DNA from: Halorubrum xinjiangense
GTDB lineage: Archaea > Halobacteriota > Halobacteria > Halobacteriales > Haloferacaceae
Direction of reading: 5' to 3'
Length of the DNA stretch: 64,000 nt
Assembly: GCF_900102375.1 (NCBI RefSeq)
Contig: NZ_FNBO01000008.1
Span: 62,001 to 126,000 of the forward strand
The notes below the pieces were generated by a model. The model had not been told where the DNA came from. It saw nothing but the letters and a program-made list of their open reading frames with translations, and searched no databases. The first letter of the stretch is position 1, and the number at the start of each line of letters is the position of its first letter. The position numbers were made by a program, and so were the translations under genes. Shown here piece by piece: positions 24,278 through 57,261 of the stretch.

Positions 24278-24324
24278 CGATCTGGAGCGATTTTTCGGAT
24301 TGGGTTAAAAACGTCTGCGATTGA

Positions 24325-24830
24325 TTTTATAAGCGAATGCGGTGGCGCGCGCCTCCGAGCGGCCGCCTCCGGCGGCCGCGAGGAGCGCGTGCGAGGGACG
24401 CCGCGAACGCCCGCAGGGCGTGAGCGGCGAGGCTGGGGAGGCGTGAGGTGCGGTTGCTGTGCGGGGCGGGACTCAAAGGGGCAGCCGCGAGGCGGGCGCA
24501 GGCGTTCACGAGAGCGGAGCGCTCGTGAGCCAATCAGAACGCTTCGCGTTCTGATGACGACGCAAGCACCACAGGGAGCGAGCAGCGCAAGCGAACGAGG
24601 AGCGTGGCTCGAGAGGGCAAAGCTCTCTCGTCATCGCCAGAAATCGGAGATTCTGGCTAGCTGCCAGACTCCTCCGGAGTCTGGCAACATCACAAGACGC
24701 CTTCGGCGTCTCGAACGACAGCGAGCGTGCGCCCGCCTCCCGACTGGGGCTTCGGTGATGTCGGTGTCGATCGGCCATTTATAGGTAAAAGCGTGCGGCC
24801 GAGCGGCTGGGCTTTGGAAGCGTTCGCCGC
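24325..24830 (+). repeat. Palindrome-rich structured intergenic element, copy A
   Basis: About 510 bp without a conserved reading frame, homologous in layout to 37361-37795. A TATA box (TTTATAA, 24326-24332) precedes block 1, GTGGCGCGCGCCTCCGAG (24342-24359). Block 2, GAGGCTGGGGAGGCGTGAGG (24429-24448), is identical in both copies. Block 3 holds CGAGGAGCGTGG (24596-24607) and CTCTCGTCATCGCC. Block 4, starting CGGCTGGG (24804-24829), ends with GGAAGCGTTCGCCG. Between blocks are perfect hairpins with three-base loops: ATCAGAACGC/GCGTTCTGAT with TTC; TGCCAGACTCC/GGAGTCTGGCA with TCC; AGACGCC/GGCGTCT with TTC; GCGGCCGCC/GGCGGCCGC with TCC; ACGCCC/GGGCGT with GCA. A structured RNA or palindromic mobile element is likely; I know no name for it. 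Confidence 0.75.
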
Positions 24831-25035
24831 CGATCAACGGTTAACCGCTTATAAATGAACGGCAGGAGCTTCGACAGACGGCATTGCGAAGCGGCCATCC
24901 GTAAGATGAGTTCTGACGTAGCCCTCCTCTTCGGAGATAGTAACAGCCGGTCGACTAAGAGTGCGTACTGAACTTCTGGATAGAACGAGTGAACGAACCA
25001 ATTGACAACTATAAGATGTCCACTCGGAAAATAAC

Positions 25036-36442: not shown

Positions 36443-37309
36443 ATGAGCCGCCCGTCACCGGCACTCCTCGCGGCCCTCTGTTTGTTCGTCGTCGGAGTCG
36501 GTCTCGTCATCGGCGGCGCCGCGGGCGCGACGGATTCAGGCCCGGTAACGTACGTGGTGGACGAGACGGACGGCGAGGTCCATCGATACGCGGACCTCTC
36601 CGAGCCGGCACGGGACGTCGTCGACGCCGGCGCCGATGGGAGTGCCGTCGCCGTCGACGACGTCCCGTCCGAGTTCCGGTCGGGGAGATGGAACTTTGTC
36701 AGGGACGGCGACGAACTCGCGTGCTTCCTTCCGACCGACGACGCCGACTCCGGAGATGTCAGCGTCACGTTCGCCCAATGCGGGGGGTTCGCCTTCGAGT
36801 ACGAGGAACTCTCCGAGCGAGGACAGACGCTCTTCACGGCAGCGATGGAGAACCCCGACGGCTACGTCTCGTTCGCCGGAGCTCCCCCTGCGGGGCTCGG
36901 CACCGCCTCGATCAACGGGGTCGACGTAGCGGACGCCCCCGAGGAAGAAGGACGCTACTACGTGTTCGCGAACGAACGCGTCTACGAGTTCGGGATCTAC
37001 GGAGCGGGTCCGCTCGGCGGGTTCGGCGAAGTCATCTACGCTCTCATCGTGTTCGCCCTCGGTCTCGTCCTCATCGCCGGCAGCGCGTACGGCTATCGGA
37101 TCTCGGCCGTTCACGCGCCGGCGGCCGCCGCGGTCGGTGCGAGCGTGTACCTCGTACAGCCGCTCGCGGAGGCCGTCGGGCTACTCCGATGGTCGATACG
37201 GCTCGACGGGTACAGCCCGTGGGGAGTCCCGTTCGTGATCGCTCTCGCGGTGGGCGGGGTGGCGTACGTGCTCCCGGAGCTGTACGCGTTCGCGCGACGA
37301 TACCTGTGA
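36443..37309 (+). CDS. Hypothetical exported membrane protein, 288 aa
   Basis: Starts with a Sec-type signal or anchor (MSRPSPALLAALCLFVVGVGLVIGGAAGA). An extracellular domain of about 170 residues follows with two Cys that could pair (DELACFLPTD and FAQCGGFAFEYEEL) and a repeated acidic pattern. Three to four C-terminal membrane helices end in LPELYAFARRYL. I do not recognise the family. Promoter: CACTTACACC lies about 28 bases upstream. It stands immediately upstream of element copy B. Confidence 0.75.
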   Translation: MSRPSPALLAALCLFVVGVGLVIGGAAGATDSGPVTYVVDETDGEVHRYADLSEPARDVVDAGADGSAVAVDDVPSEFRSGRWNFVRDGDELACFLPTDDADSGDVSVTFAQCGGFAFEYEELSERGQTLFTAAMENPDGYVSFAGAPPAGLGTASINGVDVADAPEEEGRYYVFANERVYEFGIYGAGPLGGFGEVIYALIVFALGLVLIAGSAYGYRISAVHAPAAAAVGASVYLVQPLAEAVGLLRWSIRLDGYSPWGVPFVIALAVGGVAYVLPELYAFARRYL

Positions 37310-37360: not shown

Positions 37361-37795
37361 ACTTATATATCAGGCCGTGGCGCGTGCCTACGAGGCCGCC
37401 CCGCGGTCGAGCCGGGAGGGACCTCCGGCCACTTTAGAAGCCGGCGCTTCGCGCCGGCGACTGACAGGGCGAGAGCTTCGCTCTCGCTTGCAGCCGGACG
37501 TAGTCCGGCGACGAGGCTGGGGAGGCGTGAGGCTGCGGTCCCGCGAGCGACCGGAGAGAGCGAGCGAGAGGACGGAAGTCGCAGCCCACGCAGCGAACGG
37601 TGCGAGGTGCGAGCGGAGCGAACGAGCGAGGAGCGTGGTTCGAGAGAGTTTCGCACTCTCGTCATCGCCGGAAGTCGGAGACTTCCGGCTAGCAGTCAGA
37701 ATCCATGGGATTCTGATAACCTCCCGAAAATCGGAGATTTCTGGCGACACCGAGCTGCGAGTCTTCGCGGCTGGGGATTTGGAAGTGTTCGCTGT
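37361..37795 (+). repeat. Palindrome-rich structured intergenic element, copy B
   Basis: About 435 bp, second copy of the element at 24325-24830, 13 kb away and in the same orientation. A TATA box (TTATATAT, 37363-37370) precedes GTGGCGCGTGCCTACGAG (37377-37394). The shared core GAGGCTGGGGAGGCGTGAGG is at 37513-37532, CGAGGAGCGTGG at 37627-37638, CTCTCGTCATCGCC just after, and CGGCTGGGGATTTGGAAG at 37768-37785. Hairpins: GCCGGCGC/GCGCCGGC and GCGAGAGC/GCTCTCGC, both with TTC loops; GCCGGAC/GTCCGGC with GTA; CCGGAAGTC/GACTTCCGG with GGA; TCAGAATCC/GGATTCTGA with ATG. Arms differ from copy A but remain complementary. No frame is conserved between copies. Confidence 0.75.
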
Positions 37796-37900: not shown

Positions 37901-38119
37901 ATGGGCCTGTTTGGTTCAAGCAGTAAGGGAAACTGTGAGCTGTGTGGCGGACAAGCAAACGCGAAGTCGAACGACGCCGCGAAGTGTAGCAACTGCGGAG
38001 CGATAGCCCATAAATCGTGTATGCGTAACCGGGGCTTGGTCAAGGAAACGGGGATAACGAATCCGTTCAGCGATGGGAAAGTCAAATGCCCCGGGTGTGG
38101 AGTCGTCGGTAAGTATTAG
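37901..38119 (+). CDS. Small C4HC3 zinc-finger protein (PHD/RING-variant spacing)
   Basis: 72-residue protein with eight metal ligands: C12-x2-C15, C29-x2-C32, H37-x2-C40, C63-x2-C66. The order and spacing (C-x2-C-x13-C-x2-C-x4-H-x2-C-x22-C-x2-C) fit the C4HC3 cross-brace of PHD and RING-variant fingers. The aromatic residue normally two before the seventh ligand in PHD is absent (DGKVKC). It could also be two separate zinc ribbons plus a CHC knuckle. The N-terminus MGLFGSSSKGNC is Gly/Ser-rich. It is leaderless-looking, low in G+C and stands alone downstream of element copy B. Function unknown. Confidence 0.8.
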   Translation: MGLFGSSSKGNCELCGGQANAKSNDAAKCSNCGAIAHKSCMRNRGLVKETGITNPFSDGKVKCPGCGVVGKY

Positions 38120-42372: not shown

Positions 42373-42470
42373 GCGCCGCCGCCTCACCAACGACGGTGCG
42401 ACCGGGAGGGCGAACCACCGGCGTCTCGGAAGACCAGGGCGCCGCGCTCCCGTCGCGGGGGGACCCGACA

Positions 42471-42566
42471 TCACTCCGACCCTCCCTCACTCCGACCCTC
42501 TCTCACTCTGACCTTCCCTCACTCTGACCTTCCCTCACTCTGACCTTCCCTCACTCTGACCTTCCC
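42471..42566. repeat. 16-bp tandem repeat, six units plus a partial
   Basis: Units TCACTCTGACCTTCCC begin at 42471, 42487, 42503, 42519, 42535 and 42551, with a partial at 42567. The first two have C for T at three positions. All-pyrimidine/purine bias is strong. The array overlaps the last codons of the SRPBCC gene (stop at 42551), so repeat expansion has reached the coding end. Confidence 0.92.
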
Positions 42567-43063
42567 TCACTCCCATTCGGACTGCTCTCTCCGTCCTCCA
42601 CCAGCCGTGCGAACCGGTCGAGCGCGCGACGACAGACCGGAACGTACGCGGCCGCGATCAGCGGAATCTCGATCACCGCCCGACACCGGTCCGGATCTCC
42701 TGAGTACCGCTCGACGCGGTGCCCGGTCGCGGGGACCCTGGCAACTGTCCAGTCCCACCGGAGGCGCGTCGCTGCGGTCACCCGGAACGGGATCCAGACC
42801 CCCGCGACCCGGACTCGCCCGGTCGTCCCGGCCTCGACGTACCGGTCCGCGCTCTCGACGCCGCGGACCGACGGGCTCCACTCGGGCCACCGTCGGGTGT
42901 CGCGGAGCGCCGTCGCGGTCGGCTCTGGGGGCGCGTCGACGTCGCGACCGACCGCGAGCGTCGCGCCCTCGCGGACCACCGAGTCGCCGTGGTCCCGGGC
43001 AGAGTCACCGGCCGCATCTCGGTTTCCGAACACGTCAACTCTTCCGGCGGCCACACCCCTCAT
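42551..43063 (-). CDS. SRPBCC (polyketide cyclase/START-like) domain protein
   Basis: 170-residue protein. Residues ~35-155 have the START/SRPBCC pattern: ATLAVGRDVDAPPEPTATALRDTRRWPEWSPSVRGVESADR, then GRVRVAGVWIPFRVTA and a long C-terminal helix ALDRFARLVED. The RYVEAGTTGRV turn is also typical. Such domains bind hydrophobic ligands. A TATA-like AAATATA on the minus strand (43081-43087) is about 20 bases before the ATG at 43063. The last residues come from a 16-bp tandem repeat. Confidence 0.75.
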   Translation of the reverse strand: MRGVAAGRVDVFGNRDAAGDSARDHGDSVVREGATLAVGRDVDAPPEPTATALRDTRRWPEWSPSVRGVESADRYVEAGTTGRVRVAGVWIPFRVTAATRLRWDWTVARVPATGHRVERYSGDPDRCRAVIEIPLIAAAYVPVCRRALDRFARLVEDGESSPNGSEGRSE

Positions 43064-53903: not shown

Positions 53904-54077
53904 ATGCTCTCTGCCACTCCCGGCCTCCACCACGTCACGGGGATCGTCGGCGACCCCGCGGCCGGCGCCGAGTTCTACGGCGGGACGCTCGGGCTCCGCC
54001 TGCTCCGCCGGACGGTGAAGGACCGCCCACAACTTCGGAGGATGGAATTGATGCGTGGTTCGACAGAAGTTCCCTGA
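53904..54077 (+). pseudogene. N-terminal fragment of a ring-cleaving dioxygenase (VOC), cut by an island
   Basis: The frame starts MLSATPGLHHVTGIVGDPAAGAEFYGGTLGLRLLRRTV, the normal start of the ~320-residue haloarchaeal ring-cleaving dioxygenase family (PcpA/MhqO-like). After about residue 39 (near 54020) the homology ends and a foreign reading of 18 residues runs to a stop at 54077. The matching C-terminus lies at 57262-57401. The middle 200-plus residues are gone, so the product would be inactive. Confidence 0.85.
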
Positions 54078-54260
54078 CGGATCTCAACCGGGCGGAGAAC
54101 ATTTGCCAGAAAATCACTCCGAGTTCCTACAAGTAGGATGCGAATAGTGTTTGTGTGCCACAGTTGTTAACACGCATTTTCGACCCAAAAGCAGGACATT
54201 CGCCACGAGAGAGCAATTCATATTACAGACGAGAAGTATTCTATCTCCGGGACGGGAGTA

Positions 54261-54277
54261 TCGCCGTTCACGGCGAG
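54261..54277. terminator. Hairpin downstream of the GT2 gene
   Basis: TCGCCGT and ACGGCGA form a 7-bp stem closed by TC, just past the end of the minus-strand GT2 gene. It shares GCCGTTCACGRCG with the IS200/605-like hairpin at 16271, so it may be an element end rather than a terminator. Confidence 0.35.
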
Positions 54278-54284
54278 AAGGAGA

Positions 54285-55193
54285 TTATGTGATGATCTCG
54301 ACCTTGAATTTGCTCCGCCATCGGTAGCGTCGGCCGCCCCAGACGAACGTGTTCCGCGAGAGTGCGTATATCATCAGCGGCACTTGGAGGATGATAGCGG
54401 GATACGATAGTAGAGCGGTCCAGCGGTAAATTCCGAAGTACGCGTACAAACCTGCGGCCAAGAGGGTCACACAGACTCCCGCATAAACCGGAGAAAGGAG
54501 ACAAAACAGTGCGAGTAGCGACGTGATGAGCCCCATCACGATGGTATCTCGGGGATTGTGTTGGTGGATGATCTGTGTGAATCGGACATGCCGTTCCAAC
54601 GTCTCACGGATTGTTCCACCGATCTCAACCTGCCGGATCCGCTTGAGTGTCGTTGTGTCCAGATACTCCGAGAGTAATTGGTCGTCACTCACGGTCCGTT
54701 GGAGATTCCGGAGAAATGACTCCCAGTCTAGGTCGTCGCGTTCAAACATAACGGCACCACCCCACGGCTTATTATTTGCGTACGTCCCGAGTGTCCCGCC
54801 AATGGCGTAAATCGGCTCAAGTAGCGTTGAGAGTACGTCGCTCCCGACGAAAAAGTAGAGTTCTGAGACAGGTCCCTTCTCGTCGTATGCCTCGTGGAAT
54901 GCTGCCAGCCAGTCAGAGGGATGGTGGAAGTCGTCGTCAGTCCAGACGATGCGGTCGTGGGTTGCTTTGTCCATTCCCGTGGCGAGCGCATTCGCTTTAC
55001 CTGAACAGCCCGTAGGTTCACCGGCTACGACGACCTGTACATTCTGTACCCCCTCGCCGTAGTCGGCAACTGGATCGGACTCGTCGTCGCAGATAATGAG
55101 TAGTTCGTCGGACGGGTCAAGTTGTGTGGCGATCTCCTCGATAACCGGGGAGTGTGTTGTCGTCGGGAGGAGAATGGTTGTTGGTGGGGTCAT
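54285..55193 (-). CDS. Membrane-bound family 2 glycosyltransferase
   Basis: 302-residue GT2 enzyme. GT-A core: TILLPTTTHSPVIEEIATQL, DELLIICDDESDP, CSGKANALATGMD, IVWTDDDFHHPSDWL (DxD-like) and the later SDDQLLSEYL. Two to three C-terminal helices (VMGLITSLLALFCLLSPVYAGVCV, LLSYPAIILQVPLMIYALSRN) anchor it in the membrane. It resembles ceramide-glucosyltransferase/HpnI-like members that glycosylate a lipid. It is 14 bases downstream of the P450 stop-to-start junction on the same strand, so the two probably form an operon and may modify the same lipid or terpenoid. Confidence 0.88.
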   Translation of the reverse strand: MTPPTTILLPTTTHSPVIEEIATQLDPSDELLIICDDESDPVADYGEGVQNVQVVVAGEPTGCSGKANALATGMDKATHDRIVWTDDDFHHPSDWLAAFHEAYDEKGPVSELYFFVGSDVLSTLLEPIYAIGGTLGTYANNKPWGGAVMFERDDLDWESFLRNLQRTVSDDQLLSEYLDTTTLKRIRQVEIGGTIRETLERHVRFTQIIHQHNPRDTIVMGLITSLLALFCLLSPVYAGVCVTLLAAGLYAYFGIYRWTALLSYPAIILQVPLMIYALSRNTFVWGGRRYRWRSKFKVEIIT

Positions 55194-55207
55194 AGTCGGT
55201 TTATTTA

Positions 55208-56530
55208 CTAATTGTGAACCCGAAGTCGCGCTTTGACTGGATGATTCGGGGCTAAGGTCGTTGATACTGCGAAATCCAAGTCTTTAGTGACGGGGTCGAA
55301 TCGGTACTGCTGTAGCAGTCGTGCGAGTACTAGTCGGGCTTCGAGTAGCGCAAACCGCCGCCCGATACACATCCGAGGACCACCACCGAACGAAAAATAC
55401 GCGTATTCTGGCGGGTCGATTTCTTTCCAGCGTGTCGGACGATACGCGGTTGGGTCACTAAACAAGTCAGGCCTGCGGTGCGTCGCCCACTGCGAACAGA
55501 CCACGAGTGCATCTGCAGGGACGTGGTATCCCTCGACGACGTCGTCTTCGGTTGCCTCTCGCATGATCAGGTGAATTGGAGGATACAACCGCATTGCCTC
55601 TCGAATAGCGCGATCAGTGCGAGGCAAGGGTTGCCCGATCGTAGGTTTGCCATCCAGCGTAGTAACCTCGTCCACGACAGCCGCTTGTTCCTCTGGATGG
55701 GTAGCCAGACAGTACAGTGTGTAGGTGAGTGCGAGTGCCGTCGTCTCGTGACCAGCCAGGAGAAACGTGACGAGGTGGTCACGGATTTCGTCGTCATCCA
55801 TATCGGCCGAGCGTAACGCCGAGAGCAGATCGCTTTCCTCAGACGGTGCCGATCGACGCTCGGCGAGGAGGTCGTCAACGAACTTATTGAGTCGTTTGAC
55901 CGCGTGACGGTATTGTATATTTCGTGGGAGCGGGACCCAGTCTGGAACGTGGAAGGGTACCCTACTGTCTGGACTAAAGCGATTTGTCACGGCACGGGCC
56001 GCCGCACGGACGGCCGTTGCGTCCTCGAAGTCGGTATCGAAGAGGACCTCACCGAGAATTGAGAGGGTGATTTCGGACGTTACGTTCACGAGATCGATCG
56101 TCTCACTGGGCTTCCAATCCGTGATGTAGCTGTCTGTGCGTTCGATCATTGACGCTGTATAGTCGGCAATTTGACTGGGATCGAACGCTGGTTGAATAGC
56201 CCTTCGGGCAGACTCCCAGTCAGTACCTTCACTCAGTAGCAACCCATCGCCGAGAAGCCCCTCTAGTTCGCGTCGTTGGAAATTGCCCTTTCGGTAATTC
56301 GAAGTATTGTCTGCGAGCACGTGACGTATTGCTGCCGGTTCGGCGAGCAAGACGCCCTCTTGACGCGGAATACGAAAGGACACGATCGGGCCGTACTCGG
56401 CGACTGTCTGCTCGACGAACCCGAGTGGGTCTCGGGCGTAGGGTAGTGTGTGGCCGAGAATGGGTGGTGCGGGTGGTTCTGGTGGTCTGGGATTATCGGT
56501 GGGTGATAGGCGACCTTGTGAACCGCTCAT
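55208..56530 (-). CDS. Cytochrome P450
   Basis: 440-residue P450, complete. I-helix oxygen-binding motif LAGHETTALAL, K-helix ExxR in AIREAMRLYPP, PERF-like YRPTRWKE, and heme-binding FSFGGGPRMCIGRRFALLEAR with axial C388. It has a Pro-rich N-terminus but no membrane anchor. It hydroxylates a lipophilic substrate with electrons from ferredoxin. Regulator-P450-glycosyltransferase context suggests carotenoid, retinal or other terpenoid decoration, an inference. Codon use is plainly less GC-rich than in the surrounding genes, a sign of transfer. Confidence 0.95.
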   Translation of the reverse strand: MSGSQGRLSPTDNPRPPEPPAPPILGHTLPYARDPLGFVEQTVAEYGPIVSFRIPRQEGVLLAEPAAIRHVLADNTSNYRKGNFQRRELEGLLGDGLLLSEGTDWESARRAIQPAFDPSQIADYTASMIERTDSYITDWKPSETIDLVNVTSEITLSILGEVLFDTDFEDATAVRAAARAVTNRFSPDSRVPFHVPDWVPLPRNIQYRHAVKRLNKFVDDLLAERRSAPSEESDLLSALRSADMDDDEIRDHLVTFLLAGHETTALALTYTLYCLATHPEEQAAVVDEVTTLDGKPTIGQPLPRTDRAIREAMRLYPPIHLIMREATEDDVVEGYHVPADALVVCSQWATHRRPDLFSDPTAYRPTRWKEIDPPEYAYFSFGGGPRMCIGRRFALLEARLVLARLLQQYRFDPVTKDLDFAVSTTLAPNHPVKARLRVHN

Positions 56531-56613
56531 ACCTACAGTAAGAACGTCATCGGCACCGAGATTTTTCCCACGTATAGATGGTTATTTAAATAAAACGAGG
56601 CGGAGCTAGGAGT

Positions 56614-57261
56614 ATGAAGCAAGTTCGAGTTCGTGTCGCCCCGCCGAGTGAGATGTTGCTTCCGATTCACCAAGCAATTTGTTCGACACCGGAGTTGGGA
56701 GATGCGCTGTTATTATCCGGAGGCCAGAATTCGAATGATCCAACGGAGCTGTTCTCAATTAGAGGCGGGCGGGAGGCCGTCCTCGGAGCTTTGACTGGGC
56801 AACCAGGGATACGGTCGGTTGATGTCCTCTCTGCTGGGGAAACAGAGACATACGTGTATGTACGAGAGGTTGATCAAGAGCGGACAATTGCAGATGTGTT
56901 CACGGCGAGAACACTCGTTGTGACACTACCGGTTCAGTTTCAAACGGACGGGAGTGTCAAATTCACCGTTCTCGGCTCCAATTCCGATCTCCATTCGGCG
57001 TTTAACTCCGCTCGTGAGCTTGCAGATGTGACTGTATTAAAGGTACGAGACGGTTGGTCCGACCAGATGGGCGACTCCCTAACAGAACGCCAGCGAACGT
57101 TACTGAAGACCGCCTATGAGGGCGGATACTACGACTATCCAAGGACTACCACCCAAAACGATATAGCAAATTCAGCCGACGTTAATAGCAGTACTGTAGC
57201 CGAACATCTCCGCAACGCTGAGGCGGTACTCGTACAACAGGCTCTAAACACAGATCTATAG
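56614..57261 (+). CDS. Bat-type helix-turn-helix regulator (HTH_10)
   Basis: 215-residue regulator. The C-terminal HTH_10 domain is LTERQRTLLKTAYEGGYYDYPRTTTQNDIANSADVNSSTVAEHLRNAE, the family named after bacterio-opsin activator. The N-terminal ~150 residues have no GAF or PAS and probably form the small sensor or dimerisation domain seen in short paralogs. It is divergent from the P450 gene, sharing an 83-base spacer with AT-rich sites (TTATTTAAATAAAA at 56582-56595), so it likely controls the P450/GT2 operon. Its stop codon is the right edge of the island. Confidence 0.9.
   Translation: MKQVRVRVAPPSEMLLPIHQAICSTPELGDALLLSGGQNSNDPTELFSIRGGREAVLGALTGQPGIRSVDVLSAGETETYVYVREVDQERTIADVFTARTLVVTLPVQFQTDGSVKFTVLGSNSDLHSAFNSARELADVTVLKVRDGWSDQMGDSLTERQRTLLKTAYEGGYYDYPRTTTQNDIANSADVNSSTVAEHLRNAEAVLVQQALNTDL

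Follow-up and report, generated by a model that had tools for sequence, protein, structure and literature searches.

Dispersed hairpin repeats of the REPIN and REP-RAYT kind depend on a mover that acts in trans. As far as the published descriptions that we draw on go, these repeats (PMC3116915) are among the closest known systems to the one presented here, but REPs are given as 20-40 bp (PMC3733652), whereas our repeat, some 300 nt long, folds into several helices. The BOX elements of Streptococcus pneumoniae are described as modular, stem-loop forming and present in many intergenic copies, with an over-representation between convergent genes (PMC3049150). PATEs and small mobile repeats of haloarchaea are described as short, non-coding, palindromic and of many copies, and a 489-bp PATE of Halorubrum lacusprofundi and its virus HRTV-DL1 is reported as transcribed (PMC3119063, PMC10544981).

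The window that we analysed is a stretch of 64,000 nucleotides, part of one of the 25 contigs of the 3.26 Mb genome of Halorubrum xinjiangense. It holds two sequences, A and B, which we take, with a probability of about 0.6, to be members of a dispersed, non-autonomous, structured haloarchaeal repeat family of a BOX-like or PATE-like kind. Like BOX as it is described (PMC3049150), the repeat has modular stem-loops, leans towards convergent gaps and has internal modules that are absent or multiplied: the order H-C-M-T is kept, further modules are optional and T occurs 1 to 5 times. The likeness is one of architecture, and in contrast to BOX the repeat is archaeal, covaries extensively and has swapped hairpins. 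With PATEs, compared by description and not by sequence, the Halorubrum form of the repeat (about 300-430 nt, too short for a transposase) shares being short, non-coding, palindromic and without terminal inverted repeats, but no phage match was found when a compact copy was searched. A MITE was considered and rejected, as the Halorubrum copies do not have terminal inverted repeats and no parent transposon was seen; so was an IS200/IS605 omega-RNA, as there is no overlap with a tnpB end, no recurrent flanking protein family and no Rfam match in the window.

With the structured RNAs of Rfam the repeat shares a covariation-supported fold, but no family reached its gathering score in the window. 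A weak, chance-like match of a CRISPR repeat (CRISPR-DR20, RF01333) over the element, 28.1 bits against a cut-off of 42, was rejected, there being no array. For the element in other genera Rfam gave no match either, the hits being tRNAs, a ribosomal leader and weak ones. Text searches of the literature, with partial open coverage, found no paper on the repeat.

Anatomy of the copies

Copy A is made up of the following parts.
24320-24860, + strand: copy A of the repeat; it has all four motifs, H, C, M and T, plus optional modules of two kinds
24327-24332, + strand: TTATAA box at the 5' edge of copy A
24429-24448, + strand: C motif
24470-24484, + strand: M motif
24610-24686, + strand: block hairpins 1-3, the counterpart of 37641-37716 in copy B
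24742-24755, + strand: T motif

Copy B is arranged as follows.
37361-37795, + strand: copy B of the repeat, degraded; motif M is missing, as is helix P3 in its 5' half
37374-37388, + strand: H motif, the 5' arm of helix P1 (GCCGTGGCGCGTGCC)
37420-37512, + strand: optional hairpin modules between P1 and the core
37513-37532, + strand: C motif, exact GAGGCTGGGGAGGCGTGAGG
37641-37661, + strand: block hairpin 1, with one A.A mismatch
37668-37688, + strand: block hairpin 2, CCGGAAGTC/GACTTCCGG, the first pair of the sequence-only reading
37696-37716, + strand: block hairpin 3, TCAGAATCC/GGATTCTGA, its second pair
37724-37744, + strand: block hairpin 4, whose arms look chimeric and pair imperfectly (partly by reading the sequence)
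37769-37782, + strand: T motif GGCTGGGGATTTGG, altered from GGCTGGGGCTTTGG

Copy A comes after a gene whose end is near 24278, and copy B is flanked by a gene ending near 37309 on one side and by a small ORF at 37903 on the other. This ORF (37903-38119) lies between copy B and an HxlR-like gene; its CxxC pairs, judged by eye, suggest a zinc ribbon, and its A/T-rich surroundings suggest an arrival.

The two copies share a 3' hairpin block. The sequence CTCTCGTCATCGCC is found at 24625 and 37656 and nowhere else in the window, against 0.12 occurrences expected from shuffles. Block hairpin 2 reads CCAGAAATC GGA GATTCTGG in copy A (24637-24656) and CCGGAAGTC GGA GACTTCCGG in copy B (37668-37688), so that the letters on which the sequence-only reading was built, CCAGAA/TTCTGG in A where B has CCGGAA/TTCCGG, are as it gave them. 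It was also right that the next hairpins, 24662-24686 in A and 37696-37716 in B, correspond in position and are unlike in sequence. Its wider statement, that the arms differ and yet stay complementary, holds for the block shared by A and B except that the second hairpin of A is one base short, and within copy B the first hairpin has one mismatch and the fourth pairs two unlike arms. The shared block was found in 19 distinct copies among the sequences examined, and its first hairpin comes in three arm sets (CGAGAGAGC, CGAGACGCC and CGAAACGGC) with perfect pairing in 16 of the 19.

Either strand of 37374-37780, taken as RNA, folds better than shuffled sequence (z -5.93 on the + strand, -4.96 on the - strand). 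A covariance model scan of the window found copy A alone, in two pieces that scored weakly (35 and 21.6 bits), with one further match at chance level (E 0.81), and did not find copy B. Copy B is a worn, degraded member of the family.

The order of the motifs in the copies is fixed, H, C, M, T, and the optional hairpin modules stand at fixed positions in the copies. In the stretches examined they are almost confined to the copies, few lying outside, and we rejected the idea that they are free-standing repeats. T occurs 1 to 5 times in tandem per copy with a unit of usually 57 bases; L023, L147 and C1:345682 are examples of such arrays. The unit length is divisible by three for 113 of the 115 distinct units, and 27 of 29 clusters of length variants likewise differ by multiples of three. 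No reading frame of the T units is free of stops; 64 of 82 units are open in frame 0 and as many in frame 1, against 58.5 and 59.8 in column shuffles. Coding had been declared excluded from the shifted frame between the copies; for the main body we reject coding as unlikely because the C-M and M-T1 spacings are not multiples of three.

In 93 of 203 copies GGTGGCGCG is preceded within 50 nt by a TTATAA, mostly at -13 to -24; in 2 of 203 the box stands at -100 to -50. The usual haloarchaeal promoter spacing exceeds these 13-24 nt, and we did not adopt the box as a promoter, as it is too close if the RNA includes P1. TTTATAA also terminates many T units.

Copy number and spread

With copy B as the query, 60 places (itself included) were found in its own genome, mostly partial and about 70-100% alike, and the 20-base core with at most 3 mismatches was found at 170 places there, against 3 for a control pattern. 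With at most 2 mismatches in 59 genomes, the core was present in all 35 Halorubrum genomes (own included) at 14 to 181 places, and at any place in 4 of the 24 genomes outside the genus. Many Halorubrum genomes carry 100 to 170 copies each. To our knowledge, a structured RNA-like element seldom reaches such copy numbers in prokaryotes. With at most 1 mismatch, 63 of 392 genomes of the order had a match, in 13 of 95 genera. In a separate genome scan with the core motif, the named ones among the matches listed are mostly Halorubrum.

The 3' half reaches further. A model of M-P3-T, built on 37 of the 55 sequences that passed a length filter and a GAGC filter (the latter favours the usual P3 orientation), found 71 of 117 genomes of the order in 33 of 48 genera, with hits per genome counted up to a ceiling of 30. 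In a scan of 100 genomes of the phylum it hit 13, none of them among the 85 that fall outside the order. Its E-values are rough. At a likewise rough E of 1e-6, ten distant genomes gave 4 to 77 hits each. In several distant genomes the M-P3-T units form inverted, diverging pairs around a short palindrome or, in one genus, around a C-like block. Such pairs make up loci L367-L376 (G058, G076, G120, G115). Copy B had no match among plasmids and a compact copy had 16 weak records there; the exact 20-mer was not found in viral contigs.

Folding, covariation and strand

From 103 compact copies that passed spacing filters, 102 were left after thinning and 82 were aligned, the other 20 being dropped for list length irrespective of their pairing, so the alignment represents compact copies only. 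RNAalifold on these 82 gave 53 pairs, 30 of them with double changes. The structure that we used has 44 pairs, 39 from RNAalifold and a 5-pair helix closing M on T that was added by reading the alignment. In the 82 compact copies, which share ancestry, 97.3% of its cells are paired against a shuffled mean of 83.5%, and versions of the structure slid along the alignment are 25-42% paired. Changes on both sides were seen in 31 of the 44 pairs and in 463 cells, where the shuffled means are 19.7 and 136.7, and none of 500 shuffles equalled this. Covariation above shuffles over many sequences is what a structured RNA is expected to show. The claim that folding is conserved while sequence drifts is thus strongly supported, and a search of more copies, which could have refuted it by finding no covariation, found the opposite.

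The closing helix has arms about 120 nt apart, and its variable pair is A-U in 58 copies, G-C in 21 and unpaired in 3 of the 82. In distant genera the same helix is GAAAG/CUUUC (17) or GGAAG/CUUCC (7), paired in 24 of 24. At the apex of P3, covarying two-pair steps alternate with tandem GA/GA mismatches, of which one is conserved in 78 of 82 copies and the other in 70 of 74. With 44 or more pairs, mostly covarying, with over 100 occurrences per genome in many Halorubrum and with no Rfam entry, the fold makes the copies a natural library. It offers paired helices by the hundred, along with tandem G.A steps and swapped cassettes, and could serve work on RNA folding at high salt, on archaeal ectopic gene conversion and on the spread of structured repeats.

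Over the 39 pairs, G.T outnumbers A.C by 138 to 20; leaving out one pair that is mostly U.G the numbers are 82 and 20, and counted per pair 19 and 7. This excess suggests a fold maintained on a single strand, most likely in RNA and less likely in single-stranded DNA, which too would favour G.T over A.C. P2 has the usual orientation in 104 copies and is flipped in 6, with 157 carrying neither marker, and P3 is usual in 190 and flipped in 7. The triloops of hairpins in and around the copies, on the other hand, occur in both senses, 175 against 114. Hairpins can thus invert at the DNA level while the core is kept in one sense. In L156, L175 and L269 the entire P3 apex appears inverted.

Genomic context and exchange between copies

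Neighbouring genes were called with a home-made gene caller, and gaps of at least 60 bp served as background. By this measure 23 of 67 copies lie in convergent, 32 in tandem and 12 in divergent gaps, and the 896 background gaps divide into 113, 544 and 239, so convergent gaps are enriched for copies (23 of 67 against 113 of 896). A partner among the neighbouring genes was sought and not found: the 254 flanking proteins hold no widely recurring family, the largest having 4 members.

In 30 Halorubrum genomes, locus A carries a copy in the same orientation in 14, none in 12, fragments in 2 and a copy in the opposite orientation in 1, with 1 too short to judge; at locus B the numbers are 19 in the same orientation, 8 with none and 3 with fragments. 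Other sites hold a copy in one species and are empty in another, and neither a target duplication nor sharp ends could be made out at them. Near-identical copies at two sites of the own genome were not seen, and a search for recent insertion by copy identity found none.

For one copy in a different genome, the best copies at other sites are 88% alike within that genome and 90% in another, while copies at its own site in two other species are 80-81% alike; the spans compared differ, and those of the same-site copies take in some flank. Hairpin types at P1, P2 and P3 are associated no more than in shuffles (n 24 to 72). Hairpins swap sequence wholesale while remaining paired, and this independent assortment, together with a likeness that can be higher between sites than at one site, points to gene conversion that swaps entire hairpins among the copies. 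The double changes would then largely be whole-hairpin swaps, and each need not be a separate selected event. The difference between A and B, which had been called a compensatory change, is from this angle one in which pairing is kept more by replacement of a whole cassette than by stepwise compensation.

Discussion

On the reading of A and B as members of a BOX-like or PATE-like family, a compact member of about 300 nt consists of H with helix P1, hairpin P2, a G-rich core C, motif M, the long helix P3 and motif T. The CAAAG of M pairs with the CUUUG of T and so closes the fold, kept on one strand and most likely as RNA to judge from G.T over A.C, with T then occurring 1 to 5 times in tandem. 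Copies lie between genes and either persist at one site across species or are lost. Entire hairpins would be traded between copies at different sites, probably through ectopic gene conversion that acts at the conserved motifs. Such an exchange moves both arms together and would explain the pair-preserving changes between A and B; the sequence-only reading is, taken as a whole, partly supported. It is our working guess, by analogy with PATE-like or BOX-like elements, that a mover acts in trans.

An element useful to the host, for instance a 3'-UTR element or an insulator or processing signal between convergent genes, selected at its sites, is in our view unlikely, but it has the same site and orientation in many species, the enrichment in convergent gaps and the strong one-strand structure in its favour. 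Against this, a gene of the same direction precedes only 35 of the 67 copies, which does not favour read-through, and copies are often missing at sites, neighbouring genes are not shared and copy B has decayed. We are a little more doubtful about a single-stranded DNA element of the REP/RAYT or IS200/IS605 (HUH) kind, whose hairpins would be recognised by a transposase in trans. Perfect DNA palindromes, flipping loops and the divergent inverted pairs of other genera would suit it, as would the description of PATEs as haloarchaeal relatives of IS605 (PMC3119063), but a 44-pair fold with a GGG/GGG internal loop far exceeds the hairpins of REPs, and there is no transposase family among the neighbours.

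More speculative, and rather improbable, is an archaeal SINE-like element, in which the folded RNA would be the copying agent. The element would be copied in trans by way of RNA, and gene conversion would afterwards homogenise it across the haloarchaea; the idea comes from the one-strand fold, the structured 5' body, the tandem 3' tail in steps of three and the absence of DNA ends. That no selection acts on folding, and that template switching and gene conversion alone keep the palindromes perfect, agrees with flipping loops and mosaic modules but is very improbable and already disfavoured by the kept orientation of P2 and P3 (104 against 6 and 190 against 7), by G.T far above A.C, by the invariant unpaired motifs with tandem GA in 78 of 82 and 70 of 74 copies, and by the compensatory closing helix with its arms about 120 nt apart.

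Elsewhere in the window, a 16-base tandem repeat of the GACCTTCCCTCACTCT type runs in seven copies in register at 42446-42589, and the stretch 54000-57000 has a G+C of about 0.54-0.56 against about 0.70 around it and is possibly acquired DNA.
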